DNA of 40,819 nucleotides from a virus. The stretch lies in the IMG/VR virus record IMGVR_UViG_3300020182_000073, positions 1 to 40,819 of that record. One strand, written 5' to 3'. The notes beneath the pieces were generated by a model, which saw nothing but the letters and a program-made list of their open reading frames with translations, was not told the DNA's origin and made no database searches. Shown piece after piece: positions 3,401-39,501 of this stretch. The position numbers and the translations under genes were made by a program. Each line of letters starts with the position of its first letter. The stretch's first letter is position 1.

Positions 3401-6400
3401 GCAGTTGTTCCTAGTGCACGTATTGCAGATTGTAGCGTAGATTGATGCAGACCGCGAACAGTATCTCTGCTGTCAAAGAACTGTACACGACTACGAACAA
3501 CACTAGTACAATCGCTAGACTTGTCACTGTCATTGTAGAATCTAAAGTTTGGCACATCTAATGCAGGGAATGTTGTGGTATCGTTGACCCAATTGCCGTT
3601 ACTGAAAATGTCAAGTACTAGGTCTAATACGCTTGCACCTGCATTACTTCTGGTTGTGCTTCTTGCAAAAATAGTTTCGTTACTTAAATCCACCGGTTGT
3701 CCTGCTGTTCCAGATCCAACTCCTACACCTGTTGCTATAAATTTTGTACCTGGTTTGTTTGAACTTGCGCCGATTTCTTTAAAGTTAGTAGTTCCGTTGC
3801 TAAGAATTTCATACTGCTCACCAATTACAAAACTTCCTGCGTTTATTGTATTTTTAAACTCAACTAGATATCCACTGTTACGGCTAACACGATCAAATTT
3901 AACTGTAGTGTTGAAACTACGAATCTTTTTATTAACTAGCACTGCACTTAGTTGAGCCGGATTATCGCTTTGCTCTTCTAATGTAACAGTAGGGGTACTA
4001 ATAAATCCGCTGCCTGGATTAGTTACTACAATACTAGTAATTTTATTAGCATTTAACACTGCCTTAGCAGTTGCGCCAGAGCCGCCGCCGCCGGATATTT
4101 TTACAGTAGGTGTAGTTAGGTACGTGCCGCCATCGTTTACAACAATGCTTCCAACTTCTAATTTATAGTTATCTGTCCAATCAGCCCATGGTGCTAGTAA
4201 CAATTTGTTATTGTCTTCGACTGTGCTTCCAGTTGGGCTTCGATAAGTGTTGCTGTTGAAACTATAATAACTGGGCAAATCAAAATCAGTTGTTTTTAAA
4301 TCTGCATTGTCGGTGCTGTTGTACTGTAGTACAAATTCACTGATTTTTGTATGATACGGTTTAGTTTCTTCAATATAATTTCTAATAAAGTCTTGGTTAT
4401 CTTTTTGATAAACTGTAACTTGTTGCAGAGCACGTTGCTGCTGATTTATTTTAATTAAACTAGTTTTAGTTGCAAAATCTAAGGATTTGTTTTTACTCAA
4501 TGCATATTTTAGCATATGAAGAAACCATTGGTTCTTTTCAATGGCATGTTCGTTAATAAAGAAATCTTCATACACAGCTCTAACAATTTTCTGTATTTCA
4601 AGACTTGGATTGTCGTCGTATAATTGCAATCCAAACCCATCTATATCAAAATTTAAGTTTAATAATTCTGTTTTATAAATGCTTTGATTAATTTTAAGTG
4701 TACTGTTTTCTTCTTGAACAGTTACCCACGAATCATTTTGTTTTTGCACAACCTTAAATAAACCTAACCCGTTGTCTTTAATTTTTACAAATTCGCCTTC
4801 GCTGGCAACAACACTGCGTAGATTGTATTCATATTCAACAACCTTGCTAAAGTTTCCTGGTACAACTACATTAGGATCAGTCCAGGTGACACGACTAATG
4901 TAGCGTGAGTTTTTATAAACTTGTACTCGTTTCTTAACCCATTCTTTGCTAGCTTGTAGTTCGTAAAGTACCCAACGATTCTTTGTAGTTTCGTCATTTT
5001 TAACAAATACAAGATAGCCAGTAACAAGAATGCCAGTTTCTAAGTATGTTAGTTCGACATAGTTATCTACTGCTTCGTCATATTCATGTGACTTTAGTTC
5101 TGGTTCACTTGCAAGTATATTATCAATATTCTTACTGTAAACAACTGGTGTTGTTTTCATAAACGAATTAAAATATTCCACAGCTTGCTTTACTGCATCT
5201 CTGCGATCAGTAAACATTGTCTGCCTAGGTCTGAAGTCAATGCCATATCTTAGATAACTGTTTAGTTTAATATCAGGAACTAGATTGCCGCTGGTGTCAG
5301 CACCTGCTAAACTATCAATGAGTTTTGTAATTAAATCTTCGTTAGCAACACTAGTCACATCACCTTCATTGATCAGTTGATATTCTTGATGAAGTAGATT
5401 ATTGTTTTTCTGAATATCATAGTCAATTGCTAATACTGTATTGTCTGTTAGTAAATCGTCGACATTGAATAAAGCGAATGTATTTGCTCCGGTAAACGCA
5501 ATAAACGGTACACCATTTAATGTTGGGTTAGAAATTAGATCTTCAATTTCATATATGCTGTAAATTCTATTTTCAGTATTTCTAGGTGCACGAGTTTTCC
5601 CTACAACCCAGAAATAATATTTTGTAACAAACTGTTGTGTAGTTTGATTAAATTCGGTAACAATATTAAAATTAGTAGGATTGTAAGGATATGCATCTGG
5701 GTTTTCGTCATCAAAATACTCTGACGGAGCAACATCACTTTCTGTCCATTCTGCACAAATAATTCTACTCCCTGGGAACGTAAATCCCCAGTTTGAACTG
5801 CTGTACTCTTCGCCGTCGTGATTGTATTCTACGTAACGCACTTGACTTAGATCCCACCACACTTTTCCTACATAGTCAGTACCCCAGGTTAATGCATTTC
5901 TAAGATTTTCAGTATTGCTATAAAATGCAGGGTCGATACTTGTTTGATAGGTAATTTCTTGCAACACACTACTAGTTACTTTACCTTTAATTGGGTCAAT
6001 GATATCAAGATTAGCTAATCTTTCATTTGTTTTAGAATCGTACAAGAATACACGATTAAACATATCTAAATCAACTTGCGGTTTTTCGTATCTTGTTAGT
6101 AGCCATGGCATTTTTTGTGTTGCATTTGTAAATTGATACACTACACCGCCTTCGGCTGTACTATCGTCACTGCCAGGTGCGCCTGCAATAATTGTATTTT
6201 TTGTAAATTCAATAGAATTTCCAAATTGATCTAAACTGTCGAGTTTATCAGTGTTTAATGATTCTGCAAAAACAAACTGTCCCGGATTATCAATACTCAG
6301 CTCAGGATTGCTTAGGAATTGATATATAAATACTCCTCCAGTTTGTGCTTTAGTGACACTAAATGATGTGCTGTTAGTATCAAATTTTGTTTTATTGTTG

Positions 6401-9400
6401 TCAAAAGTTTCAACTATAACTGCATCACTACGATCGGCACTAATTGCAATTAAGTCTGCTGTATTGTTTACTTTTACTACTTTACCAAAATTATTGTATG
6501 CTTTGTCTTGTGGACTATTAATTATTTGTCTAGCTACATAGACACTAATTCCCATGTCTGCAAAAAAGTCTCCAGTCTCTTGCACAAGATTTAATTTATC
6601 TGCATACACTTCACTGTCAGTTTCTACAGTAAGAATGTTCCCAACACTTAATGCAGTAACACCTGGAATATTTGCTGCATTAATTTTTGTAACCACATCA
6701 GATAGTGTGTCTGCTGCATCAAATGCAACTCTAAAATTGTTAAAGTACATTGCAGATCCTACGCTTACTGTTGGATTTTGTATTGTGCCGATTACTTTGC
6801 CAAAGAATTTTCCTTGATTTAAATATCTATATACACGGCCTGCGTCAATTGAGTCAACATCATGATATGGTGCACCAACATATAAACTACAGTCATTTGG
6901 ACATAAGTCAATACTATATCCGTATTGTGCACCAGACTGTGCATCTAATGCTGCGGTTATACTATGGTTTGTTACAAAGTTGTTTGTATCAATTTTAACA
7001 ATACTACCTCGACTTGGTGTTTCTGTAAAAGTGATAGTATTGGTGCCGTTGAATGTAAAATCTGTAGTTTCTACATCATCTACAAACACACGTGGTGTGC
7101 CTTGAATAGTTACACTTGCTGTAAAAATGTTAGTGCTTCCTGTGGCAAACTGATTTTCAACTGTCCTATTATAGACGTGCACTGTGCCAGCATTATTATT
7201 TGTAGCACTGATAATAATTTGATTAGCATCGGTACTGGTTACTACTCTATGACCAAAATCAGTTGCAGATGCTCCTGTAATAGTGTAAACATGATTAAAA
7301 TAATTTTTATAAGTTATACTAATAGAAACAACAGCAGGCGGAGTTGTAAACACAATATTGCTTCCTGAGATTGTGTATTCTTTAAACGGGATCATTAACT
7401 TATTTCCAACAATTACTTTAAGTTCATATATACTTGTTGGTTCATTTTCTAATGCAAATGTTGTTGTAGAGCCATTACCAACAGTATCTTCAGTAATTGC
7501 AAGCAATCCTTCTGTATCTAGTGTAACCATTTGGTAAGCATGTACTTTGTCTACACCAGGTTGTCCGATATACATCCATTTACCGTCGTTACTTATTGCA
7601 ATATCATTGCCAAATTTCCCATTAGCATCGTGTCCTGGTGCTGCCAAGGCTTGGTCAACGTAAAAACTGCCAAAGCGGTTTCTGCGCAGAATATGTACAT
7701 AGCCAATATTGCTGTTGCTCAATGGCGAACCTGCAGCGGCATATATATTTGATCCTGCTTCTAGTACACTACCAAATCCAACAATATCGTTACTTGGACT
7801 TAATAATTCACTATCTTCAATTAAAGCACCTGTGGTGATATTTCGTTGAAATGCCTGAACTTTGTTTGAAGATTCTGCACCAACAAGAACATAATTATTT
7901 CCGTTGTCGCCTGCTAAACTGTAACCAAAGCCGTCGTTTGCAGTTGATTCGCTGTCACTTAAACTCTGATCAAATGCAAATACATTTGAGTTTTTGTATA
8001 CGCCCCAGCCGCTGTTAGTTGCACTGTCGATGTATAGTTTGTCTTGATTCTTCCACCCTTTTGGGGGAACATTGTTGTTTGCATCTGATAGTGTATCAAA
8101 GTGAACTGTGTGTAAGTTATAAATTACTGCAACTAAGTCTTGGTTATCAAGAAATCCTCGATTATAGTTTGGTAAATCTGTTTGCACACTAATACTATTG
8201 CTGCCACTTTCGATAACTCTATAGTAACCTGTAAAATCAATTTCGCTTGGATCGCTGCTGGTATGCACTTTAATTAAAATATCATCGCCTGCTTCTAGTC
8301 CACTTACTTGTGTTGTAGTAAGAATTGCAATTCCTGATGGATCAGTTACAATACTACTAATACGTGCAGCATTAACAACTGTTTTGTAAACATTCCAATT
8401 ATCTTGTTTGTCGCTGCCGACCCAGATATACTGATCTTCTCCGATATTGTTATCAATATACGATCCTAATAAATCTAGTGTTGGACTAATATAATCAATT
8501 TCTGATTTCTGTGCATAACCTGCACTTGGTAAATTGTTAACACGTTTTTTTCTATCACGCATTGTAAATGCATTTTTATTATATGGCAATGGATGCACTA
8601 GAAGATCGTTTGATTTATAACCCACACGACCTGTTGTTTTGCTATCGTTATCGTCTAGCATTTCTATTAACAATGGAGATTTTTGTGTGTTATCATTATT
8701 AGGGATTTCTAATCTAATTTCAGTGGTATTACCAACTCCACCGAAGTTGCCACTTTTAATTGCCCACTGTTCAAAAAAGTCTGCTTGACTTTCAAAGTTG
8801 TCTAACTTTGCTCTTAACATTTTGTTAAGACTGTTGTTACTGCCTTTTTGTCTAATTAACCCTTGATAAAATTTAACTTGGCTAGTGTCACTAATTCCTA
8901 AATCATTTAGATATTCACGCTGCGAAAATCCTATTAATCCTTTTGCTAGTCTATCAGGATCAAGTTCAAGATTAGTTTCATTAAAGTCATAATATGACTT
9001 AGGCATGCCTGCCTTGTTAGCAAGGTTTGGTAGTAACTGATCAAATTGACTGTATTCAGTTATTAGCCAATCATTGCTGTTAAATTTTGTATGGCTAGTT
9101 ACACTCTCTTTAGCTGTATAATATTCACCTTTAAAAAGTACAATTTCACCTTTGCTATAGTTTCTACCTGCTTGCCACTGTGGTACATTATCTTCATTGA
9201 TAATAAATCCTGGTGCTCCAAATGTACCGTCCCAGGCAGATGTTCTAAATCCACTGATTCTAATTCTATATTGTCTATTACCACTCTCAGGCTGATAGAT
9301 AATATCGTTAAATTGTGTTTTGTTTTTAAACACAACTACGTGTTCCCAATCAACAACGTCAATGTCTGCTAGATAAATTGCAGTATCGTTTAGTGTTTCT

Positions 9401-12400
9401 ATACTAAAGTTTCTGCCGTCACGGTTGACAATATAGTTGTTTGGTTCTATAATAGCTTTATTGTTATCGTAAATTCTACTACCGTATGGGCGATTGCTAA
9501 TACTATCAACTGCACCTCGTACACTTCTAAAGTTTAATGTACTTCCAATTGGACTAAGACTAACACTGATGCCCTGATCCCATCCTTGTTGTGCCCAGAA
9601 TATAAATTCTTTTGCAGCAAGTTTCCAATTGTGCACTTCGTTTGAACCTTCAACTCGATTGTCAAATTTAAAGCCTTGGTTTTCAAGAAATCTACCGTAT
9701 CCTATTAAAAATTCAACTACATTTTCAACACTGTTTAATTCAGATCCGTATGCAAGAACAACATTCTCGTTGGTGCCAGTTGCAGATACTTCTACTGCGG
9801 TATTACCAACTTTAATAACTTGAGTATCACTGTTTTTACTTGCTACATTAACAATAAATGTTGGATCATTTAAATCATATCCACTAACTGTAAATCCGTT
9901 TGCACTTCTAGTAACAATAACACCACTGTAAACAACACTTTGTCTAGGACTACTTTTAAAAAGTTTAATATCGTAATCATCATCAGGAATTAAAATGCTA
10001 CTGTTGATACTATTAGGGCTACTCTGTTCAGCAAAGAACTTCAAAAACTTTTTATCTGTATATCCAGATGCTTTATAACTTAAACGCAATTGAATATTTC
10101 TAAGTTTATCACCAATAGCGTCTGTAATATTATAATTTAAACTGTTAGCGTATTCTGCAAGCCATGTTGTGTATCCGTTTGTTCTAGCAATAGTACCGTC
10201 AGTGTTTAATTCGCCATGTACTTGTTCAATTTTAGTTCTAGTACCAGTACTATTAAACTGCCACTGATTATTTTTAATAACTTGATCGTTTGTATCTCTG
10301 TACAATCCAAAATATTCTGCAGGTATTGAAAGTGCTAGTGCAATCTGAACTGCAAACGGATATTCACTACTGTGCTTCCATGCTGTTTCTACTGGATTGC
10401 CATCGCCGTACTTCCAGCTGCCATTTACAACATTACTGTTATTAACACTTAAACATTCATACGGGCTCAGCAATTCGCCGCTGTCATCGACCGGAATAAT
10501 GTCGCTTAACCCAGGTCTTTTGTAAACACTATCTATTGTAATGTTTCCTGGTTGTGCAATTTTACCTGCTTCAAGATCGTCCCATAATACTTTGTTGCCG
10601 CTGGTGTAAGGTGCGGGACCGTATACTTCTTCCCACCAAGTTGGTTTTGTTGTTTGCCCGAGCATTTCCCAAGGTCTTAGATTAGGTTGTTCTGTATCAT
10701 AAAAATGATTGTAAATACCTCTCCAGTATGCTGCTGGCATTGATTTACCAGTTAGTTTTTCATCAAATAATCTATAGTTCCAACTAAATTTGTCAAGACT
10801 CGAAACTTCAACAGTATCATTGATTTTAACATTGTTTTTGCCTAGCCAGCGACTAAAGTTCTGTGCAATAATATTATCAAACTCTGTTTTGCTATATGCT
10901 GTTTTTCTAAATGCGCCAGGAATATAACTATCAATATTGATTAAATCCTTATTGTAAGTTACTTTAACATTGTTATAAATGCGCTTTTCAAGTTCAAGAA
11001 TAATATTGTCTCTGAAATCTCCAAGCATTGCAATTTTGCTACCGTCGTGGCCTCTAATTACCTGATGTGTATTGTCTCCATATCCGTCAATAATAATCTC
11101 TGGTGAAAATAAAGGATACATTCCAAGTTTACTTGGAGTTGGCGGAATATGAAACCCATCTGTGCTGGTGTATTCTCTGATTTCTAGTTTATCGTCAATG
11201 TTTACTTCCAAGAATCTCATTGAGCTAGTGTCACCAGCAGGTCTAATTTTTAGTGTAATAACTATTCCGTCAATTGTATAATCTAGATTTTTAACTAATT
11301 GAGTACCGTTTAAGAAAACTAATACTGCACGATTGCTTGGAATTTTATCGTTGAATGTTTGGCTCAGGTAGTAAGTATCAATTTCAGTATTGTTTATTTC
11401 ATATGAAATTTCATTGTAGTCATTGCCTGACGGACACATATCGCTATGATAAAACGGGAACATCTCGTTTTTATTTGCAAACATTTCAGTTAACAACTCA
11501 TCTAAAGATGTACTAGAATCTGTTACATCAGTGTAACTTATTTCGCCGAGCATTCTATAAAATTTATTTTTAAATGTTTCGTATTCTCTTTGATTGTAAA
11601 GCAAACTTTCAATGAAATTTGCTTGAACATCATTTAAGAAAAGATTTGCCAAATGCGGAGCGCCTGCATTCTGAAGAATAGTACCGCCATTTAATTTAAC
11701 ATCTTTAAGATCTTTACTGTTGTTTAAACCTTGATAATTCCCGGACAAATCAGGAGTTTTTACAAATGTTTCAATGATGTGATTTCTCATCTGTCCGAGT
11801 GTAATTTCTACAATGTCAACATTTTTAGCATTATTCTCAAGGTTACTTGGAATTTCCCAATTATTGTTTTTACTAACTGTACTACTATAAATTTTTACAC
11901 TAATTTTATCAGTAGATTTTAAATCTTTAACAAAAACTAGACTGCCTACACCTCGTTCGACTTCAACATCGTATGTAGATTTGTCTATTGGTGTGTTGTT
12001 TTTATAAACAATAAGATGTGTTGGCGAAAGACTTTCTGGAATAATATCTAATTTAAATCTATTGGTTTGAGTTTCAGTTGCAAAAATAGTTTGTGTTTGG
12101 TATTGTTTACTCTTTTCAGATTTTTTACTCCATTGATTAATGTACTCAACTGTACCATCGGTGTTGTTTTTTCTTACTTTAAGACCTTTTGTTGTTGCAG
12201 TAATTGTATTTTCGTTGCTATCTTCATATACAAAGGTATCGTCATTGATAGAATCGCAGAAAACAATATCACCTACATTGTTAATACTTCTATAGCTTAA
12301 AGGAAATCCTAACTCAGTGTCGTTAGCTCCTGTGCCTTTTTTGTATCCAAAAAGTTTTGAGCCAAGGAAATTGCTTGCTTTATATGCCGAAGTATCACTA

Positions 12401-14958
12401 ATAGTAATGCCGTCGGCATTGAAAAGATCAAACAATGGTTCCTGATTGTTTGATCTTTTCTGTTGAGTTTGTGTCCATGTTCCTGCCTTGTAGTACCAAT
12501 TAGTCCCCTGGTATGTAGTTCCTAATTTACTTAGAATAACATCATTATTTTTAACTGTTGCAATTGCTTCAAGTTGTAACTGTTGGCTGTGTTTGTATGT
12601 AGCAATTACAGTTTGTCCGTTTGGTATTGCGGTGTTAAACACTAATTCGTTGCCATCAACACTGTACTGATATGTCGAATTAGGTACCGAAACACCATTA
12701 ACTTGCACAGTGAGTTGTATGTTTTCTGCTGCAAATCCTAGATCAAATCGTGTTGTACTACTATCGCCTGTAAATATAAATTGCTCTAGATTAACGTTGC
12801 TATCTACGTTAACCCAATTAATACGATAAATTGTTTTTCTAACTTCTTCATTTAAATCTGCAGAGAAGATTATAGTTTCTCCATTGACTAAAGGTACACC
12901 ATCTGAATAATAACTACTAACTATCTGATTACTGATACTAACCGGTAAGCCTTGTACATTAGAAAGTGCGTCAGTTTGTTCTGTGTTAATTGTTGTTACA
13001 GATTGTTTGTAATTTTTACCAAAATTAAACAATTGTAAATTTTTATCAAATTCAATAATAGGACGTTTTGCTTTATTATCTTGATCTGAGATAGTTGTGT
13101 AATTGTTAAATTTGTTAGACTTATTGATTACACTTTCATGAAACCAGCGGTTTTGTCTACTCCATGCACTACCTTCTTGGCTGCCCCGATTAATAACAAT
13201 ATATTGTTTGTCTTTAGGACTGTTAGAATTTCCATCAAATGAAATAGTATCAAATAAATTACTGTCAAACGGTTCTTTGACTACATCTAACCAACTTTCT
13301 GGTGTTTGTAAATTACTAACTGGAACAAGTTGTATCTTAGTTCCTACACCTTCAACATAATATTCATTATCTTCGTAGTGTGCTGGACTTGTAGTGCCTA
13401 CAAATTTAACTTTCAGGCCATTTTCAAATTCTACTCCGTTTGAACTTGTGTATGTACTACTTTCAAGAATATAATTGACATTAATTTCTGCATCATTAGT
13501 CTGGTCCACAATTTCTATTAATCCGTATACTTCAGGATCGATGCTATCTTGATAATAAAGATAATCTAATTTAGCAGTAATAGGCGGTATTAGTTTAATA
13601 CTATTATCGCTAGTCCTGTAAGCTTTTCTATTACCGTATTGAATACCTTCACCGATCTTTATTTTTTTGTTTACTAGAATTTCTTCCACTGATGTGAGTT
13701 TTAGTTTATTGTTAGAATCAATACTAATTCTAAACCAACCTAGTTTTTCTGTCTCAGTTATTATTGCATTGCTATCGTCAGGATCATTCCAGTGGTTTTC
13801 ATAATCATATACCACCAGGTTGCTTGTAACAAATCCCACACCACTTGTGAAATCTCTAATAACACGATAAACTGTGTTTGAGTAACTGACTAGATCATCT
13901 TCCTTGTAATTAGTATTTGCAGTCCAAGCAACCGAGGTCTGAGTTTTACTTCTTGTTTCTAAAAACAGTACTAGTTTTCCATCTAGATTGCGTTGACCAT
14001 CAATGCCGCCGTAATTTCTTAGAAACGTCGTTGCATCTTGGCTTTGAATTTCGTTATAACGTAAATGTCTTTGTTGTTTTGTGCTATATGAAACTAAATT
14101 TACACCATTGCCTTGTATCGGCATCTGTGTAAAGAAATCTTGTGCATCGTTTTCGGGTACGTTGAACGTAACTGTTCCAACATCTGCGCCGTTATTAGTA
14201 ACACCTAGTACTTCTCTAATATTAAGATTATCCTGCCAACTGTAAGAACTTTTTAATCCCGGTTCTGTTTGAATAAAAAAGCCGTGACCTTCTTGATTGA
14301 CATTAAATGTATATGTGCCACCACGTGCTAATCTTAGTAATGGATTTGATGTTGTTCCGATATTGCTAAAACGATACCCAGTTTCGCCTAGTCTTTTAAC
14401 ACTACCTACACTTGTATCAAAATTACTGCCATCAAATCCTTCATTGTCTACACTGCCAGTTACTACACTGTAATTCGATGGCGGAGAAACTGTTATATCT
14501 AAATTGTATTCAACTTCTGCGTTGATAATATTAATACTATTTGGACCATTGGGTAACCAATAATAGTTACTATAATTTGTAAACTTGTCAAAATCCATAA
14601 AACTAGTATATGTGTATTGATCAGCAGCAAACAATCTACTAGGGTTATCGATATTCCCCCCTAGTGAATTGATTTTGTTAATTAAATCAACATATGTACT
14701 AACAAATTTTATTTCGCCATTTTTGTTTTCGTAAACACTACTCGGCTCAAGTTGATAATTTTGTCTATCCGGCCATGCTTCAGTAACATAATTGTCAAAT
14801 TGATTTAGACTAGGATTAAACTTTCTGCCAATATATCCATCAAGACGCTCAACTTCTGGCTCACTGATAAGTTGGTCAACTGTTGCTCTCAGAAGTTTTT
14901 CGTTGGTCCTAGTTTGGAAAACACTAGGTAAAAAGTTTGAACTTTTCTTATATCCCAT
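442..14958 (-). CDS. Giant virion structural protein, probable baseplate wedge/fibre component (4838 aa)
   Basis: This is a single uninterrupted frame from ATG 14958 to TGA 442. It follows gp6, the position of gp7-type wedge proteins, so a baseplate or tail-fibre-network role is likely but inferred. Visible modules (residues approximate): a conserved-looking N-terminus (1-150); a cupredoxin-like beta segment with GGTYTFNV and TVTFNVP (205-290); three CBM5/12-like aromatic modules (341-366, 1924-1969, 3878-3905); a seven-repeat FG-GAP propeller (about 2330-2945); a glycine-rich GSGATAKA module (about 3605-3670); a G..Y.I..GTTNF module (about 3709-3745). A recurring beta-sandwich pattern, T.F.L then VFVNG then Y then I.F..P then V.I.Y, occurs about nine times, densest near the C-terminus. 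The last residues repeat YVDEG. Surface binding of glycans is plausible but unproven. No transmembrane or catalytic motif was seen. Confidence 0.85.
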   Translation of the reverse strand: MGYKKSSNFLPSVFQTRTNEKLLRATVDQLISEPEVERLDGYIGRKFNPSLNQFDNYVTEAWPDRQNYQLEPSSVYENKNGEIKFVSTYVDLINKINSLGGNIDNPSRLFAADQYTYTSFMDFDKFTNYSNYYWLPNGPNSINIINAEVEYNLDITVSPPSNYSVVTGSVDNEGFDGSNFDTSVGSVKRLGETGYRFSNIGTTSNPLLRLARGGTYTFNVNQEGHGFFIQTEPGLKSSYSWQDNLNIREVLGVTNNGADVGTVTFNVPENDAQDFFTQMPIQGNGVNLVSYSTKQQRHLRYNEIQSQDATTFLRNYGGIDGQRNLDGKLVLFLETRSKTQTSVAWTANTNYKEDDLVSYSNTVYRVIRDFTSGVGFVTSNLVVYDYENHWNDPDDSNAIITETEKLGWFRISIDSNNKLKLTSVEEILVNKKIKIGEGIQYGNRKAYRTSDNSIKLIPPITAKLDYLYYQDSIDPEVYGLIEIVDQTNDAEINVNYILESSTYTSSNGVEFENGLKVKFVGTTSPAHYEDNEYYVEGVGTKIQLVPVSNLQTPESWLDVVKEPFDSNLFDTISFDGNSNSPKDKQYIVINRGSQEGSAWSRQNRWFHESVINKSNKFNNYTTISDQDNKAKRPIIEFDKNLQLFNFGKNYKQSVTTINTEQTDALSNVQGLPVSISNQIVSSYYSDGVPLVNGETIIFSADLNEEVRKTIYRINWVNVDSNVNLEQFIFTGDSSTTRFDLGFAAENIQLTVQVNGVSVPNSTYQYSVDGNELVFNTAIPNGQTVIATYKHSQQLQLEAIATVKNNDVILSKLGTTYQGTNWYYKAGTWTQTQQKRSNNQEPLFDLFNADGITISDTSAYKASNFLGSKLFGYKKGTGANDTELGFPLSYRSINNVGDIVFCDSINDDTFVYEDSNENTITATTKGLKVRKNNTDGTVEYINQWSKKSEKSKQYQTQTIFATETQTNRFKLDIIPESLSPTHLIVYKNNTPIDKSTYDVEVERGVGSLVFVKDLKSTDKISVKIYSSTVSKNNNWEIPSNLENNAKNVDIVEITLGQMRNHIIETFVKTPDLSGNYQGLNNSKDLKDVKLNGGTILQNAGAPHLANLFLNDVQANFIESLLYNQREYETFKNKFYRMLGEISYTDVTDSSTSLDELLTEMFANKNEMFPFYHSDMCPSGNDYNEISYEINNTEIDTYYLSQTFNDKIPSNRAVLVFLNGTQLVKNLDYTIDGIVITLKIRPAGDTSSMRFLEVNIDDKLEIREYTSTDGFHIPPTPSKLGMYPLFSPEIIIDGYGDNTHQVIRGHDGSKIAMLGDFRDNIILELEKRIYNNVKVTYNKDLINIDSYIPGAFRKTAYSKTEFDNIIAQNFSRWLGKNNVKINDTVEVSSLDKFSWNYRLFDEKLTGKSMPAAYWRGIYNHFYDTEQPNLRPWEMLGQTTKPTWWEEVYGPAPYTSGNKVLWDDLEAGKIAQPGNITIDSVYKRPGLSDIIPVDDSGELLSPYECLSVNNSNVVNGSWKYGDGNPVETAWKHSSEYPFAVQIALALSIPAEYFGLYRDTNDQVIKNNQWQFNSTGTRTKIEQVHGELNTDGTIARTNGYTTWLAEYANSLNYNITDAIGDKLRNIQLRLSYKASGYTDKKFLKFFAEQSSPNSINSSILIPDDDYDIKLFKSSPRQSVVYSGVIVTRSANGFTVSGYDLNDPTFIVNVASKNSDTQVIKVGNTAVEVSATGTNENVVLAYGSELNSVENVVEFLIGYGRFLENQGFKFDNRVEGSNEVHNWKLAAKEFIFWAQQGWDQGISVSLSPIGSTLNFRSVRGAVDSISNRPYGSRIYDNNKAIIEPNNYIVNRDGRNFSIETLNDTAIYLADIDVVDWEHVVVFKNKTQFNDIIYQPESGNRQYRIRISGFRTSAWDGTFGAPGFIINEDNVPQWQAGRNYSKGEIVLFKGEYYTAKESVTSHTKFNSNDWLITEYSQFDQLLPNLANKAGMPKSYYDFNETNLELDPDRLAKGLIGFSQREYLNDLGISDTSQVKFYQGLIRQKGSNNSLNKMLRAKLDNFESQADFFEQWAIKSGNFGGVGNTTEIRLEIPNNDNTQKSPLLIEMLDDNDSKTTGRVGYKSNDLLVHPLPYNKNAFTMRDRKKRVNNLPSAGYAQKSEIDYISPTLDLLGSYIDNNIGEDQYIWVGSDKQDNWNVYKTVVNAARISSIVTDPSGIAILTTTQVSGLEAGDDILIKVHTSSDPSEIDFTGYYRVIESGSNSISVQTDLPNYNRGFLDNQDLVAVIYNLHTVHFDTLSDANNNVPPKGWKNQDKLYIDSATNSGWGVYKNSNVFAFDQSLSDSESTANDGFGYSLAGDNGNNYVLVGAESSNKVQAFQRNITTGALIEDSELLSPSNDIVGFGSVLEAGSNIYAAAGSPLSNSNIGYVHILRRNRFGSFYVDQALAAPGHDANGKFGNDIAISNDGKWMYIGQPGVDKVHAYQMVTLDTEGLLAITEDTVGNGSTTTFALENEPTSIYELKVIVGNKLMIPFKEYTISGSNIVFTTPPAVVSISITYKNYFNHVYTITGASATDFGHRVVTSTDANQIIISATNNNAGTVHVYNRTVENQFATGSTNIFTASVTIQGTPRVFVDDVETTDFTFNGTNTITFTETPSRGSIVKIDTNNFVTNHSITAALDAQSGAQYGYSIDLCPNDCSLYVGAPYHDVDSIDAGRVYRYLNQGKFFGKVIGTIQNPTVSVGSAMYFNNFRVAFDAADTLSDVVTKINAANIPGVTALSVGNILTVETDSEVYADKLNLVQETGDFFADMGISVYVARQIINSPQDKAYNNFGKVVKVNNTADLIAISADRSDAVIVETFDNNKTKFDTNSTSFSVTKAQTGGVFIYQFLSNPELSIDNPGQFVFAESLNTDKLDSLDQFGNSIEFTKNTIIAGAPGSDDSTAEGGVVYQFTNATQKMPWLLTRYEKPQVDLDMFNRVFLYDSKTNERLANLDIIDPIKGKVTSSVLQEITYQTSIDPAFYSNTENLRNALTWGTDYVGKVWWDLSQVRYVEYNHDGEEYSSSNWGFTFPGSRIICAEWTESDVAPSEYFDDENPDAYPYNPTNFNIVTEFNQTTQQFVTKYYFWVVGKTRAPRNTENRIYSIYEIEDLISNPTLNGVPFIAFTGANTFALFNVDDLLTDNTVLAIDYDIQKNNNLLHQEYQLINEGDVTSVANEDLITKLIDSLAGADTSGNLVPDIKLNSYLRYGIDFRPRQTMFTDRRDAVKQAVEYFNSFMKTTPVVYSKNIDNILASEPELKSHEYDEAVDNYVELTYLETGILVTGYLVFVKNDETTKNRWVLYELQASKEWVKKRVQVYKNSRYISRVTWTDPNVVVPGNFSKVVEYEYNLRSVVASEGEFVKIKDNGLGLFKVVQKQNDSWVTVQEENSTLKINQSIYKTELLNLNFDIDGFGLQLYDDNPSLEIQKIVRAVYEDFFINEHAIEKNQWFLHMLKYALSKNKSLDFATKTSLIKINQQQRALQQVTVYQKDNQDFIRNYIEETKPYHTKISEFVLQYNSTDNADLKTTDFDLPSYYSFNSNTYRSPTGSTVEDNNKLLLAPWADWTDNYKLEVGSIVVNDGGTYLTTPTVKISGGGGSGATAKAVLNANKITSIVVTNPGSGFISTPTVTLEEQSDNPAQLSAVLVNKKIRSFNTTVKFDRVSRNSGYLVEFKNTINAGSFVIGEQYEILSNGTTNFKEIGASSNKPGTKFIATGVGVGSGTAGQPVDLSNETIFARSTTRSNAGASVLDLVLDIFSNGNWVNDTTTFPALDVPNFRFYNDSDKSSDCTSVVRSRVQFFDSRDTVRGLHQSTLQSAIRALGTTAGINNIDISGTTVTLDGSLIDNTPSVLNWKNNFAYYAGDVVFYNNVFYTVDVDYTSATSGFSTTNLTKLEAGSVISHLDRTWKLYKPVDGMLANDPAQLFNGTVFPGARVLGVAFSKNSGFDSGATEKSSIEDSNDPLYLTTFNPSTDVNITSNIFEFKNDNDESIDHGFVDEEKLYYNPNGNATIGGLAIDTIYYVSVVNSKQFKLTTDQALLNVVNITSVNSGTHKLLSSFKKWSTDIVNRPGFSGDPDKEFTFEEWAHDRFEGGSGFDIGAFDPDDLTIEGVPSSLPSAYDQGIYSRFTDTALGTRPEDIITSGGKFLDPNHSYAPEEHVPGSVYDTLEMFVHTLPTQLSGSTGYSPKFGVTSYTGDGVQTRFNFSKEDVGDYFLVYTSETGPRYRKIAETNNNIPLFTVEGGYYEGSQDRAYSIDWTTGEIVFDNPIADGDILTITRIAQTGENILANKTFTSDGTTNIFALEIENSRIKNSLVLVNGKEVDHSITSNNNHISYVVLSITPQLNDHIHMLLSGNSQNTISKVYTQIEQLEDSQVVVRLDEVIRNNLPKDTTVIAELNGSRLRPSNTAYYDSDGSTVDFKLPNTAKEKTITSLTNSQVRVWVDDVKLNPVQDYTVSAPTGTSVPTVTMFTPPEVGARVSITYTGNADYTINETTNDIELLGVVPARGDLLAVTSFSDHDSYHFETRVFVGTDQFLSSTKIGGFDNIAFDVSEFDGISVVTELDIEYELGDGQIAERLFVSIDGAKMIANLDYVTKGRTLYFADSISVTDTSVIIITEMNKNIYNFESTYSIFNDMNGNVNYYRIAEEEATELARDLSFTATEIELKDASEFPTPVGKTPGVISINGERITYWTKNGNILGQIRRGVAGTGASEHTTGTIVLNMNKLVPDSKCNTWYNKGSGTPSDGKGLQQSLTKAAQFIKDKKGISFPLTFAGVDDIYVDEGYVDEGYVENTPSDLSFVQEDYVNPGYTQDP
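514..550 (-). repeat. 15-bp tandem repeat at the 3' end of the giant gene
   Basis: The 15-base unit AACATACCCTTCGTC occurs twice exactly at 514-528 and 529-543 and begins a third time at 544-550. On the coding strand it gives repeated YVDEG. It preserves the reading frame, so it looks like slippage-driven length variation in the C-terminal tail. Confidence 0.85.
12421..12460. repeat. Perfect 16-bp inverted repeat inside the giant gene
   Basis: GAAAAGATCAAACAAT at 12421-12436 is followed by an eight-base loop and its exact reverse complement at 12445-12460. It lies in the coding sequence for about residues 833-846 of the giant protein and would form a strong hairpin in the mRNA. No T-run follows on either strand, so it is not a typical terminator. 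Confidence 0.85.
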
Positions 14959-35567: not shown

Positions 35568-35974
35568 AGAACGCACTTACAATCAGTGTACAGCATCCAG
35601 ATATAACAATGATTCGCTGTGAAGTTAACAGCGAAGTTGTTAAGCATAAACTAATCAAAGGTAACTATTATTTTAGTGCACCAGATAACAGCCAAGTTAA
35701 TGTTTACTTTGAACCGTGGCAAATTGAGCCTATTATAAGATTTAATCATCATATGGTTAACTATGCACTAGCAGAAATTAATCAATACGATCATATGCTG
35801 GAATTTAAAGTAAATACTGATTATCTTGAGTACTATTTTTCAAACCAAATTGAATATAAGAAAAAGTTTTTAAATATTACAAACGATAACAAAAGTTTAC
35901 TAATGGATCAGTTTGTGGGTGTCGAAGTTGACTATAGAGAAATCGAACAATTAATAGACAAAAAGTTAAAATGA
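35564..35974 (+). CDS. Unknown protein, 136 aa
   Basis: I do not recognise this protein. It starts in an ATGA overlap with gp46 and ends in an ATGA overlap with the radical SAM gene, so it is translated as part of the operon. The N-terminal half is strand-rich (ALTISVQHPDITMIRCEV, YYFSAPDNSQVNVYF), the middle has FNHHMVNYALAEINQYDHM, and the C-terminus is charged and helical. No membrane segment or signal peptide is visible. Its position suggests a DNA-metabolism accessory role, but nothing in the sequence proves it. Confidence 0.8.
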   Translation: MKNALTISVQHPDITMIRCEVNSEVVKHKLIKGNYYFSAPDNSQVNVYFEPWQIEPIIRFNHHMVNYALAEINQYDHMLEFKVNTDYLEYYFSNQIEYKKKFLNITNDNKSLLMDQFVGVEVDYREIEQLIDKKLK

Positions 35975-37434
35975 AAAAAGCACTGCTGGTTAATCTTCCA
36001 AGATATGATACAATTGCACCTAGTAGTGCAATGGGAATTCTTGCTGGATTATGCGAGAACCATGACTGGGATTACGACATTGTTGACATAAGTTATGAAA
36101 TCAAAAGCCGGTTAACGGTAGACGAAAATTTTGAAATTGATAACTGGCTTACGTTTATTATACCAGAAATAAAACCAGAAACTGAACAGAAGTTGCTGGA
36201 TATCTGGAGAAGTTTAGTAGTTGATGTTGCAAATGATTATAATTTGGTATGTGCTAGTATCTTTACATACTGGACATTACCAATTGCTAGACTGTTTTTA
36301 ACTGACTATCAAGAAAATATTGCTGCAACAACCCCGATAGTAACTGGAGGTAACGGTACGCTTAGTGCTTTTCCAGATACAAAACAAAGATTTTATGATT
36401 GGGCAACTGAAAATAAAATTGTAGACTATGTTATTGTAGGCGAAGCAGAAACACCTTTTACAGAATTACTTAAAGGCAATACAACTGGTCCAGGCATTAA
36501 CAATGAGAATTTTATACAAGAAGAAAACTTAGATCGTTTCCCTTTGCCTAGTTATAAAAAGTTTAATATGCTAAACTACAGCGGCACTACACTTTATATT
36601 ACTGGTAGCAGGGGATGTGTTAGACGCTGTACATTTTGTGATATTCAAAATATGTGGCCAAAATTTAGATTTCGTAGTGCAGAAAGTCTAGTCCAGGAAA
36701 TAGTAAAGCACTACTACGAAACCGGTATTGAACGATATGAGTTCACAGACAGTTTAATTAACGGCAGTACTAGCAACTTTTATAAGTTTAACAGTTTGCT
36801 TGCAGAGGAAAAAGCAAAAAATAATGATTTAAAAAACATAAACTATGTCGGACAAGCAATTGTACGTCCAAAAAATCAAATGCCAGAATATCATTATGAA
36901 GCCATGTACCATGCAGGTTGCAGGCAAGTTACTATTGGCATTGAAAGTTTTAGTGAAAGTGTTAGAGATCATATGCTTAAAAAATTCAGCAACGAAGATA
37001 TAATGTATCATGCGCAGCAATGTAGTTATTGGGGCATACGAAACGTATGGCTAATGATTGTTGGTTATCCAACTGAAACAATTGAAGATCATATGGATAA
37101 CATGCGTGGATTGGAAACTTATAAAAAATATGCACAACAGGGTATTATCGAACTAATGCGCTGGGGTACAAGTATGCATTTAATTGAAGATACTCCTATT
37201 GCAGATCCACAGATGTTACGAGATTTAGAAATTAACAAAACACACCAAAGTAGCAATAGTACTGCTACAGATTGGCATTATAATTGGGTTAGCAACAAAA
37301 ACCCAAGTTTAGATTTAAAAGAAAGAATAAGACGCAGGATGGAATTACATTACGAAAGTGTTCGACTCGGTTATCCACAACCTAGGGTAATTGAAGAATT
37401 AAAGATCGTAAATGCCCTTGCAGATCATATATAA
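35971..37434 (+). CDS. B12-binding-type radical SAM protein
   Basis: Residues 1-170 have the Rossmann-like layout of B12-binding domains (KKALLVNLPRYDTIAPSSAMG, IVTGGNG, VDYVIVGEAETPF), but the cobalt-ligand DxHxxG motif is not visible, so cobalamin may be bound weakly or not at all. The radical SAM core begins at TLYITGSRGC216VRRC220TFC223, the canonical CxxxCxxC for the [4Fe-4S] cluster, followed by RFRSAESLVQEI and GIESFSESVRDHMLKK. Family members catalyse methylations, ring contractions and similar radical reactions; the substrate here is unknown. The 487-residue length is normal. It is in the recombination operon, next to a PD-(D/E)XK nuclease, and with a methyltransferase upstream. Confidence 0.88.
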   Translation: MKKALLVNLPRYDTIAPSSAMGILAGLCENHDWDYDIVDISYEIKSRLTVDENFEIDNWLTFIIPEIKPETEQKLLDIWRSLVVDVANDYNLVCASIFTYWTLPIARLFLTDYQENIAATTPIVTGGNGTLSAFPDTKQRFYDWATENKIVDYVIVGEAETPFTELLKGNTTGPGINNENFIQEENLDRFPLPSYKKFNMLNYSGTTLYITGSRGCVRRCTFCDIQNMWPKFRFRSAESLVQEIVKHYYETGIERYEFTDSLINGSTSNFYKFNSLLAEEKAKNNDLKNINYVGQAIVRPKNQMPEYHYEAMYHAGCRQVTIGIESFSESVRDHMLKKFSNEDIMYHAQQCSYWGIRNVWLMIVGYPTETIEDHMDNMRGLETYKKYAQQGIIELMRWGTSMHLIEDTPIADPQMLRDLEINKTHQSSNSTATDWHYNWVSNKNPSLDLKERIRRRMELHYESVRLGYPQPRVIEELKIVNALADHI

Positions 37435-37441
37435 TAAAATT

Positions 37442-37960
37442 ATGCCAAGCAAACAAAAAGCAAAAGGTAGTGGTTGGGAACGTGATGTTGCAAAATATCT
37501 GTCAGACCTCTACGAAGAAAGTTTCATACGTGCGCCCGGAAGTGGTGCATACATCGGCGGATTGAATACATTCCGCAAACAATACCTTGACGAAGAAAAA
37601 ATTAGAACTTTTAAAGGAGATATTGTTCCTGGTGAAAGTTTTCCAAAATTAAATGTAGAATGTAAAAATTATGCCGACTTTCCATTTAATCTACTGTATA
37701 GTAACGAATGTAAGGTAATTGATACCTGGCTTGATCAGTTACTGGCACCTGCAGATAAAAAAGACATAAACATATTAGCAATGAAGTTTAATCGAAAAGG
37801 CAAATATATTGTCTACGAAACTAAACACAAAAAAATAAACCCTGGCTCAAATTACACAACGTATAACAATAAATCTAAAGAACATGGTCCCTGGTGCATA
37901 GTCGATTTTGACACCTTTTGGCAATTAAATAAAACAGTTATAAAAACTCTCTCAAAATAA
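37442..37960 (+). CDS. PD-(D/E)XK family nuclease
   Basis: The preferred start is ATG 37442, eight bases after the radical SAM stop; the ATG at 37412 would overlap that gene. The 172-residue product has an N-terminal KAKGSGWERDVAKYL helix with E13, the loop RAPGSGAYIGG, then KGD60IVPGE and NVE73CK75, the D...ExK catalytic set. Similar proteins in phages are Holliday-junction or repair-type endonucleases. Position at the end of the gp47/gp46 operon fits DNA recombination or repair. A 12-base repeat shared with the downstream non-coding region lies within its 3' part. Confidence 0.75.
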   Translation: MPSKQKAKGSGWERDVAKYLSDLYEESFIRAPGSGAYIGGLNTFRKQYLDEEKIRTFKGDIVPGESFPKLNVECKNYADFPFNLLYSNECKVIDTWLDQLLAPADKKDINILAMKFNRKGKYIVYETKHKKINPGSNYTTYNNKSKEHGPWCIVDFDTFWQLNKTVIKTLSK

Positions 37961-38005: not shown

Positions 38006-38034
38006 TTAGCACGGCTATATAACCACCTTATAAT
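38006..38034 (+). promoter_or_regulatory. Sigma70-like promoter for the candidate RNA
   Basis: TTAGCA (38006-38011, four of six consensus positions), 17 bases, then perfect TATAAT (38029-38034). Transcription would begin at about 38041, which is exactly where the outer helix of the RNA candidate begins. Confidence 0.5.
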
Positions 38035-38040
38035 ATACTT

Positions 38041-38226
38041 CTGAAGGTTGCTTGGGACACTCCGATAATTGTCCCTATGTGGTAAAGTAATGGCTAACTA
38101 TAGGCTAAATGATTGCGGCTCTGTGAAACAGATACAACCGCTACACATTTATATACTGCTGATATAGTATATAAATGTTTCCGTTGGATGGAGACTAAGG
38201 TAGGGAGTACAGGCTAACCGCTTCTG
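38041..38226 (+). ncRNA. Candidate structured non-coding RNA (about 186 nt or longer)
   Basis: The ends can pair: CTGAAGGTTGC at 38041-38051 with GCTAACCGCTTCTG at 38213-38226, through GAAG/CTTC and GTTGC/GC-AAC with a small bulge. Inside are a GGGACA/TGTCCC hairpin (38054-38075), a two-part hairpin GCGG with TCTGT/ACAGA and CCGC (38115-38141), and a perfect 13-bp hairpin ACATTTATATACT (38145-38178). CTAAC (38094-38098) can also pair with GTTGG (38183-38187), enclosing the last two hairpins. A promoter lies just upstream. No tRNA, tmRNA, RNase P, 6S or group I intron signature was recognised. The 3' end may extend to the hairpin at 38292-38313. Function unknown. Confidence 0.5.
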
Positions 38227-38291
38227 CTGTGTAAAAACAAATCCTTTAATATCAGTGACTAGAACTGTCTAAATCAAGACTTTTTTAAAAC

Positions 38292-38313
38292 CTTCACCCG
38301 GAAACGGGTGAAG
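38292..38313 (-). terminator. Hairpin with 9-bp GC-rich stem, probable terminator for the gp26 transcript
   Basis: CTTCACCCG, loop GAAA (plus strand) and CGGGTGAAG form a perfect stem. On the minus strand it is followed by GGTTTTAAAAAA, a short T-run, so it could end transcription coming from gp26. On the plus strand it has a GAAA tetraloop and could instead cap the 3' end of the RNA candidate. Confidence 0.55.
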
Positions 38314-38417
38314 TATGACTACTCAATCTTAATCAAGTAATTAAAAGTATCATTAAAATATTATTCTTTAAGTTATATATTCTGAAAGAAAAAAATGATG
38401 AGTGCAAACGAATCATT

Positions 38418-38436
38418 AGATCTACTTAGTAGATCT
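38418..38436. repeat. 8-bp palindromic hairpin after the gp26 frameshift stop
   Basis: AGATCTAC, loop TTA and GTAGATCT form a perfect hairpin 10 bases beyond the stop codon of the frameshifted gp26 product. No T-run follows, so termination is uncertain; mRNA 3'-end protection is an alternative. Confidence 0.6.
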
Positions 38437-38446
38437 CTTAACTGAA

Positions 38447-38677
38447 CTAGTAAATTGCTTGTTTGATCTTCTTACTAGTTTCCATGTTGTTCTTGATCAA
38501 ACTATTAATAGAAGCTCTATCTTTTCCACTGAGTTGCCATGCTTCAGATATGCTTAGTCCTCCTCGCATCCACCAACATAAACTAACCACTGAGTCTCTG
38601 ATTTGATCTGCTTCGCTGTCGAGTTTTTTAAGTTCATCGCCGATCTCTGAAGCACTCAGTCCTAAGAGTCGGCTGCG
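38447..38677 (-). CDS. gp26 -1 frameshift extension (76 aa)
   Basis: In the -1 frame relative to gp26, 76 codons run from the end of the slippery heptamer to TAG at 38447. The product has SEIGDELKKLDSEADQIRDS, then LCWWMRGGLSISEAWQLS and KDRASINSLIKNNM, which looks like a real folded helical domain and resembles small CWYMRGG-type proteins I associate with gp26 loci of marine phages (from memory). There is no ATG, GTG or TTG before this domain, and a TAA lies a few codons upstream in its frame, so expression by slippage from gp26 is the simplest explanation. The fused protein would be about 351 residues. Confidence 0.7.
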   Translation of the reverse strand, partial: RSRLLGLSASEIGDELKKLDSEADQIRDSVVSLCWWMRGGLSISEAWQLSGKDRASINSLIKNNMETSKKIKQAIY

Positions 38678-38683
38678 AAAAAA
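38639..38683 (-). promoter_or_regulatory. Programmed -1 frameshift site: slippery heptamer and stem-loop
   Basis: The heptamer T-TTT-TTC (38677-38683) is in the correct phase with gp26 codons AAT TTT TTC. After a three-base spacer, GCCGA-CTCT (38673-38665) pairs with AGAG-A-TCGGC (38648-38639), a nine-base-pair stem with one bulged A. The gp26 stop codon (38662-38664) lies in its loop. Confidence 0.7.
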
Positions 38684-39501
38684 TTTGATGGATTAAATTC
38701 GAATTGTGTAGATTCTTCATGTCCACAAGCCGCACACACAAAAGGAATTTTTGGCGTACTGTATTGGGCATTCTTTTCGTCGATACCTTTTTTTAGTAAA
38801 TCAAAATCTTTTCTACTGCTCTGATTAATAAATTCAATAATATGTTCTTTATTTGTTACTTTACTTCCGTCTGGTAGTATCACATATTCGATATATTCAA
38901 TCATTTGATTGGTGCTAATTTCTCCGAGTTTTTGTATTGTATCTCTCAAAATCTTTTCTCTAGATTCAATTGTTAATTCTGAGCTTTGTGCAGCAAGAAT
39001 AGCACGTTGTTGTTCATACAATTTTTGTGCACTTAAATTTGACATTTCGTATGTACTAGGTTTAAGCATAAAATGCAAATCGCCAACTTGTACAGTTGTG
39101 TTAAAATCTGGAAACTGCAAACTTTCAAGCACACCATGTAGATTTATACCAAATTTTGTAGTTTCACTGCATACACTACAAGCTTTTTCGACGTCAAGTT
39201 CATTTCCGTAACTAGCAATTCTTAATGCAATAAACAAATATTCAATGTCAACATTAGGACCGGCCCATGCATTTTTAATATTTGGCACACAGCTCTGTAT
39301 AACTTCAACACTAGTTGATCCGTTCATAAGTCCGTCTGCGTTTTTCATAATTAAATCATCGTGGCCAGTCATAGCCATGATTGGTAATTCTTCGTTAGGT
39401 GGAATTTCGATACTACCTTCAGGCCACCATTTACCGCCACTGGGTAATTTGATATAAATTTCTGGTTTTCTTAGATAATTCTTTAAAGGGTTGTCTGTCA
39501 C
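38662..39501 (-). CDS. gp26: Baseplate hub assembly protein gp26-like
   Basis: The start is GTG 39501, preceded by AAGGA at seven bases. The 279-residue product has the T4 baseplate (gp26-type) opening NPLKNYLRKPEIYIKLPSGG, then MTGHDDLIMKNADGLMNG, and a C-terminal zinc-ribbon-like set: CSVC near 110 and CAAC near 260. T4 gp26 is 208 aa and helps assemble the baseplate hub. The reading frame ends NFFAADS, but a -1 slip at its last Phe codons would extend it by 76 residues, as in the tail-assembly chaperone pairs of other phages. A late promoter lies 37 bases upstream. Confidence 0.82.
   Translation of the reverse strand: MTDNPLKNYLRKPEIYIKLPSGGKWWPEGSIEIPPNEELPIMAMTGHDDLIMKNADGLMNGSTSVEVIQSCVPNIKNAWAGPNVDIEYLFIALRIASYGNELDVEKACSVCSETTKFGINLHGVLESLQFPDFNTTVQVGDLHFMLKPSTYEMSNLSAQKLYEQQRAILAAQSSELTIESREKILRDTIQKLGEISTNQMIEYIEYVILPDGSKVTNKEHIIEFINQSSRKDFDLLKKGIDEKNAQYSTPKIPFVCAACGHEESTQFEFNPSNFFAADS

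Follow-up and report, generated by a model that had tools for sequence, protein, structure and literature searches.

A structured RNA with a conserved pseudoknot in uncultivated T4-like phages and cultured Rak2-like phages

The window, the whole stretch of DNA analysed here, is a 40,819-base virus record from IMG/VR. It carries a sigma factor, SbcD/gp47, SbcC/gp46 and a nuclease, then the hub on the opposite strand and the structural genes, an order that parallels that of the Escherichia jumbo phage 121Q. Elsewhere in the window, the minus strand carries a 4838-aa ORF (442-14958), which corresponds by position to a 9972-bp gene of 121Q, and a radical SAM protein is encoded within the recombination operon (35971-37434). 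A scan of the 40.8-kb window found no tRNA or tmRNA genes. Between the end of the plus-strand nuclease gene at 37960 and the hub ORF starting at 38662, no ORF of at least 60 aa is present, as expected from the original prediction, which placed a gene-free region here. A minus-strand frame of about 80 aa is readable at approximately 38447-38692 and is similar to a small gene found ahead of the hub in relatives; at full length, it has no listed start codon. The nuclease slot itself varies, holding a PDDEXK enzyme in the window, EndoVII in 121Q, and a SegE-type GIY-YIG enzyme in one uncultivated group. The locus contains the following features:

37412-37960, plus strand: upstream gene, PDDEXK_15 endonuclease (Pfam; RusA-like resolvase in PHROG)
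38006-38034, plus strand: promoter-like TTAGCA-17-TATAAT (TATAAT at 38029-38034)
38016-38440, plus strand: structured RNA delimited by comparative structure, ends approximate (5' end at or before 38022, 3' end near 38440)
38022-38083, plus strand: P1, ACCAC (38022-38026) with GUGGU (38079-38083); the homologous helix covaries in 33 relatives
38054-38059 with 38070-38075, plus strand: hairpin enclosed by P1, GGGACA/UGUCCC; pairs checked in the window
38091-38107, plus strand: hairpin A (38091-38094/38104-38107), loop UAACUAUAG; pair counts in two alignments
38115-38141, plus strand: hairpin B, GCGG/CCGC (38115-38118/38138-38141) and UGU/ACA (38122-38124/38134-38136); covariation
38145-38178, plus strand: hairpin C, perfect 13 bp (38145-38157/38166-38178); window pairs, and covariation in the widest alignment
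38183-38218, plus strand: pseudoknot, GUUGG (38183-38187) with CUAAC in the P-b loop (38214-38218); covariation in the widest alignment
38197-38246, plus strand: P-a, AAGG (38197-38200) with CCUU (38243-38246), closing the domain that contains P-b and P-c; covariation
38203-38225, plus strand: P-b hairpin, GGGAG (38203-38207) with CUUCU (38221-38225); widest alignment and cultured Rak2-like group
38228-38239, plus strand: P-c, small hairpin UGU..ACA; 4/4 pairs changed on both sides in the widest alignment
38292-38313, plus strand: 3' hairpin CUUCACCCG/CGGGUGAAG, then UAUGA; window pairs and relatives
38394-38417, plus strand: hairpin AAUGAU-GA-GUGCAAAC-GA-AUCAUU with tandem G-A mismatches
38418-38436, plus strand: palindromic hairpin AGAUCUAC-UUA-GUAGAUCU; window pairs, present in relatives
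38662-39501, minus strand: downstream gene, baseplate hub, convergent

The stretch 38006-38313, for which a strongly folded non-coding RNA had been predicted, folds better than 100 out of 100 dinucleotide shuffles (-83.6 versus -66.5 kcal/mol, z -3.3). It belongs to a real RNA, but the proposed span was too short: since the 3' hairpins lie downstream, the RNA runs past 38313 to about 38440, and is about 0.4 kb long in the window. The window can form every comparative helix as well as the pseudoknot, and all of its pairs in the P-a/P-b/P-c domain and the pseudoknot are standard. Some parts differ in detail among relatives. The loop of hairpin A is UAACUAUAG in the window and UAACUUAAG in most relatives, and the 3' hairpin at 38292-38313 has the conserved form TTCACC..GGTGAATTATGA in relatives. 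A tandem G-A hairpin (N-UGAG...CGAA-N) was found 90-320 nt past the start of the core in 120 of 128 loci, compared to 11% of random segments. The hairpin that follows it in the window (38418-38436) is terminator-like, but its U tract is short. In RNA variants from 6 loci, the core hairpin is separated from the CCGUUG strand by several tens of inserted nucleotides.

A second element of the original prediction, a long-range helix closing at 38213-38226, is neither conserved nor supported by covariation. Its putative 5' strand reads GAGG in 61 cases, GAAG in 12, GAGA in 7, and others besides, against a near-invariant CCTC, and because this strand fails to track the core, the helix was rejected. 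The bases concerned instead form the local hairpin at 38203-38225, whose loop pairs with 38183-38187.

Homologues of the RNA adjoin the same baseplate hub gene in uncultivated T4-like/jumbo phages. A single-sequence nhmmer search, which took in 86 loci, of which 80 had been retrieved solely through the nuclease protein, returned divergent matches beside this gene in other phages, with E-values from 6e-11 to 2e-5. Scanning for exact matches to the core motif GGGRGTACMGGNNAACCGCYTC gave at least 120 IMG/VR contig stretches, and a covariance model built only from uncultivated phages (R1) matched all of the first 100 motif loci at E<=2.3e-6, some of these loci having been used to build it. As a test of prevalence, R1 was run on 24 viral loci that were fetched only by the hub protein of a relative, and in 22 of these it detected the RNA next to the hub and on the strand opposite to it; in the two loci that were missed, less than 0.8 kb of sequence follows the hub. 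The RNA is nearly universal across the clade sampled, and its location beside the hub, which is convergent to the RNA in the window as well, is fixed in most members. Most of the uncultivated genomes searched had one clear copy. One 328-kb contig has the RNA on the strand opposite to its immediate neighbours (nuclease, gp46 and gp47), and there it therefore does not arise by read-through from them.

Base changes among these relatives preserve the proposed pairs. We drew on three alignments: one of the core (A1, 33 sequences), one of the 5' domain (A3, 33 relatives), and the widest (A5, 38 distinct sequences), to which cultured phages and loci recovered independently of the motif also contributed. 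Because an exact 22-nt motif served as the seed for A1 and A3, invariance within it is by construction; the two variable loop positions of the pseudoknot were N in the seed. In A1, 91.2% of cells were paired, compared to 79.5 +/- 0.7% in shuffles and 41-53% in slid controls, and 20 pairs had double changes, with 120 double-changed cells against 36.5 in shuffles. The 5' domain behaved similarly, with 89.4% of cells paired in A3 against 75.5%, 12 pairs double-changed, and 88 double-changed cells against 19 in shuffles. The helix homologous to P1 (alignment columns 37-40/76-79, from which its placement in the window was read off) was 100% paired. The signal was also clear in A5, where 93.2% of cells were paired against 67.1% in shuffles and 41-49% in slid controls, 29 of 34 pairs had changed on both sides (298 double-changed cells against 92 in shuffles), and the covariation score was 0.52 against 0.15.

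Individual elements bear this out. Hairpin B showed all four Watson-Crick pair types at two pairs in A1 and was 100% paired in A5, where P-b was 99.5% paired and P-a had changed on both sides at 4/4 pairs. The perfect 13-bp hairpin named in the original prediction is present as hairpin C; its position is conserved, while its sequence and length are variable, and 5/5 tested pairs had changed on both sides in A5. The cultured Rak2-like group on its own (8 sequences) was 99.1% paired with 5 pairs double-changed, and had the same P-a, P-b and pseudoknot architecture, giving independent support for P-a. The pseudoknot has the consensus CCGUUGN pairing with NNAACC, and its most variable, innermost pair was AU in 11, UA in 9, GC in 7, and CG in 5 sequences of A5. 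Variants read from the alignment include GUUGA/UCAAC, GUUGG/CUAAC, GUUGG/CCAAC, GUUGU/ACAAC, GUUGC/GCAAC, GCGGA/UCUGC, and GUCGU/ACGAC. As the pseudoknot columns were absent from the covariance model used to align A5, this covariation is not an artefact of fitting. The homology of these RNAs, their conserved secondary structure and the pseudoknot are thus established by comparison. A decayed protein gene was ruled out as the source of the conservation, as base changes preserve pairs and there is no conserved ORF; an ORF of at least 90 aa spans the core in only 1 of 128 loci.

Searches with the hub and nuclease proteins led to PA5oct/Paride-like phages, Phosso, and Asteriusvirus 121Q-like phages. 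Gene-poor gaps lie at the equivalent place in 121Q and PA5oct, in which R1, run with filters off, scored 12.4 bits (E 0.11, 121Q hub gap) and 9.5 bits, respectively, values that are weak alone. When R1 was run over 60 kb of cultured-phage loci, however, its eight best matches all fell on homologous gaps (E 9.4e-5 to 0.06), and the matched gene-free gaps belong to cultured Rak2-like phages (RaK2, 121Q, Munch). Considering its weak score, the 121Q hub copy is a putative member, placed by synteny and the reading of its motifs; PA5oct-like phages probably carry the RNA as well, judging from position, synteny and shared motifs. With the 121Q sequence as query, blastn found 32 further records carrying relatives at 60-80% identity, almost all of them from phages of Klebsiella, Salmonella, Erwinia, Cronobacter, Pectobacterium, Serratia, and Xanthomonas. 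Using blastn, the window RNA gave matches to cultured phages at chance level only, and a main-group sequence had no match among 50,697 cultured phages.

Sinorhizobium phage Phosso has a gene-free, strongly folding 1-kb gap at the equivalent place (2259-3274 of the fetched locus), which contains a UCAU-GA-GUUUAC-GA-AUGA hairpin and has no clear core match. Membership of Phosso is no more than a suspicion; its gap could hold a distant member or an unrelated RNA. In some cultured phages, tiny hypothetical ORFs are annotated inside the RNA, as in Hallingskeid (1159-1663 of the fetched locus), PA5oct (gp338/gp339, locus 3100-3517) and 121Q (gene 516, locus 2800-2955). ORFs annotated across the RNA are probably spurious.

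Rak2-like phages often carry several copies. In 8 of the 11 records with matches, 2-4 exact matches to the Rak2-like core were found per genome, with copies at 40.9, 182.4, 263.2, and 316.7 kb in Munch and at 193.2, 247.9, and 327.0 kb in 121Q. An apparent displacement of the RNA by 83 kb in Eneladusvirus was rejected, as it corresponded to a paralogous copy. The copies sit in gene-free gaps, one of which has a small annotated ORF across the core, and the dispersed copies lie in differing gene contexts. In all 11 records, the copies within a genome share one strand, which may reflect gene direction or a constraint from replication or transcription.

The RNA had also been predicted to have its own TATAAT promoter. 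For the window, this could not be upheld: the scan found 2 promoter-like sites compared to 3.6 in shuffles, and the TATAAT at 38029-38034 overlaps the conserved P1 domain. Because it lies between the two strands of P1 (38022-38026/38079-38083), it probably does not serve as a promoter for the full-length RNA. Nor did the uncultivated group inspected show a recurrent promoter position or an own promoter for the RNA. Among the cultured Rak2-like copies, on the other hand, the idea holds up better, as 22 of 27 have a TATAAT 300-620 nt upstream of the core, compared to 35% of random windows. It often occurs as TGNTATAAT, mostly in one conserved or similar context, suggesting that host-type sigma-70 promoters may drive the RNA in these phages.

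The prediction of a structured non-coding RNA outside known families was strongly supported by the checks proposed along with it, a covariance-model search of viral contigs and the presence of compensatory changes, and Rfam was silent. Rfam 15 gave no matches at the gathering threshold in the window and 20 relatives, and none for single members at lax thresholds (E<=5 and E<=10); on cultured-phage loci, it gave three sub-threshold matches, none covering the RNA core. Silent families include GOLLD, ROOL, rRNA, tmRNA, RNase P, 6S, introns, and HEARO. A hammerhead reading of the 3' tandem-GA hairpin was rejected as well, since the Rfam hammerhead models were silent and the order of a hammerhead core (CUGAUGA ... 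GAAA ... UH, with three stems) is absent; the flanks of the G-A pairs are instead self-complementary through UGAU. When 257 Gb of bacterial and archaeal genomes were scanned for the exact core motif, four matches turned up, approximately the chance number calculated for the pattern. In three of the four, the R1 match covers little beyond the 22-nt motif or the contig end, and the single match that was opened lies inside a coding frame. With four motif matches and no full RNA, a bacterial origin was rejected; the RNA is viral only, with no cellular or Rfam relative found. The open-access literature searched yielded no description of the RNA, though one may exist elsewhere. No described RNA family matches it.

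Its transcription, partner and function we infer from these comparisons. We lean towards a stand-alone structured RNA gene that is standard equipment of a large T4-like jumbo clade, consisting of the Rak2-like phages, most probably the PA5oct-like phages, and many uncultivated relatives. From our reading of the copies, the gene would be about 0.35-0.6 kb long. Its RNA comprises a 5' domain (P1), hairpins A-C, a central pseudoknotted domain (the P-b loop with the CCGUUGN strand), and then the 3' hairpins. In Rak2-like phages, transcription would start from host-type sigma-70 promoters. With less assurance, we propose that the RNA works in trans as a folded molecule, binding a phage protein or itself, that the resulting RNP or oligomer may act on a function common to all hosts, and that dispersed extra copies could raise the RNA dose. 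The dispersed copies in differing contexts with an upstream TATAAT argue for such a stand-alone, trans-acting gene. A more far-reaching version, to which we give somewhat less than even chances, is that these RNAs form a trans-acting structural class, multicopy in Rak2-like phages, that is core and possibly essential to the infection programme of the T4-like jumbo supergroup, acting as an RNP or oligomer on shared host machinery.

Alternatively, the RNA could be a cis-acting element: a 3' UTR stabiliser or processing element of the recombination operon in most of the phages, or an antiterminator-like leader before operons in Rak2-like phages. It would then affect its own transcript, for example through RNA polymerase, in the manner of the HK022 put RNA. 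In 111 of 114 uncultivated loci, the RNA is preceded by a gene on its own (plus) strand, whose end lies a median of 210 nt before the core, and a 3' UTR role is possible in this group because the RNA follows this gene and no own promoter was found. Likewise, some Rak2-like copies precede plus-strand genes, several of which start within about 0.3 kb, and a leader would fit these. However, in the window, as in 97 of 114 loci, the gene that follows the RNA is encoded on the other strand, which leaves no room for a leader there, and the upstream gene is on the opposite strand in 121Q, GAP32, CBB, and Hallingskeid. Moreover, the antiterminator RNAs known to us are smaller than the multi-domain pseudoknotted fold seen here. 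We consider a cis-acting role unlikely.

Mimicry or sequestration of a host machine (the ribosome, RNA polymerase or an RNase) appears improbable. The RNA is conserved across phages of unrelated hosts, meaning that any host partner must be universal, and the promoter-like sites in Rak2-like phages are of the host sigma-70 type, but no Rfam family, including rRNA, 6S, tmRNA, and RNase P, matched even at lax thresholds. We see even slimmer prospects for an RNA linked to replication or packaging, such as an R-loop origin transcript or a motor RNA. The single strand shared by the copies of each of the 11 genomes and the position of the hub copy between recombination and structural genes would suit it; however, same-strandedness may only reflect gene direction and the shared ancestry of few copies, most uncultivated genomes searched have a single copy, and we know of no packaging RNAs from T4-type motors. 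Finally, the RNA could be a ribozyme or derive from a mobile element, for instance as a leftover intron or OMEGA-type guide RNA; the SegE-type endonuclease gene adjoining it in one uncultivated group points this way. This reading is very improbable given that the adjacent nuclease differs by group (PDDEXK, GIY-YIG, EndoVII) and was not seen beside most other Rak2-like copies, that no Rfam ribozyme, intron or HEARO model matched, and that the core elements of a hammerhead do not occur in their proper order in the tandem-GA hairpin.

This pseudoknotted RNA has been conserved through heavy compensatory change in giant phages infecting E. coli, Salmonella, Klebsiella, Cronobacter, Pectobacterium, Erwinia, Serratia, and Xanthomonas, as well as in a large uncultivated group, yet no RNA library searched contains it, and in cultured phages it goes without annotation or lies under ORFs that are probably spurious. 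As Escherichia phage Sharanji (host MG1655; identical locus) and 121Q grow on E. coli, the function of the RNA is directly testable in the laboratory. If essential, it would join the small number of RNA components that large lytic phages are known to need.

Among known systems, the HK022 put RNA acts on its own transcript through RNA polymerase. Antiterminators of this type are likewise structured and may precede early operons, but they are much smaller and cis-acting, and unlike them, most copies of the RNA described here are not upstream of same-strand genes. GOLLD is a large, structured, phage-encoded RNA of unknown function whose expression rises during lysis (PMC12286853). The present RNA shares these traits apart from the expression pattern; GOLLD, however, is often longer than 800 nt and lies near tRNA islands, whereas the RNA studied here is about 0.4 kb, with no tRNA gene in the 40.8-kb window, and gave no match to the GOLLD model. 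ROOL, found in phages and prophages, contains several pseudoknots, has no known protein partner, and forms nanocages (PMC12286853). Both are pseudoknotted phage RNAs, but ROOL gave no covariance-model match and has a different gene context. The lytic phage ICP1 produces an abundant non-coding transcript of about 800 nt from an ORF-less gap of about 1 kb (PMC7567579); it comes from a different phage group and context. The resemblance to GOLLD, ROOL and this transcript is confined to a sizeable length, phage origin and an unknown role. Broadly, the RNA joins other orphan phage RNAs.
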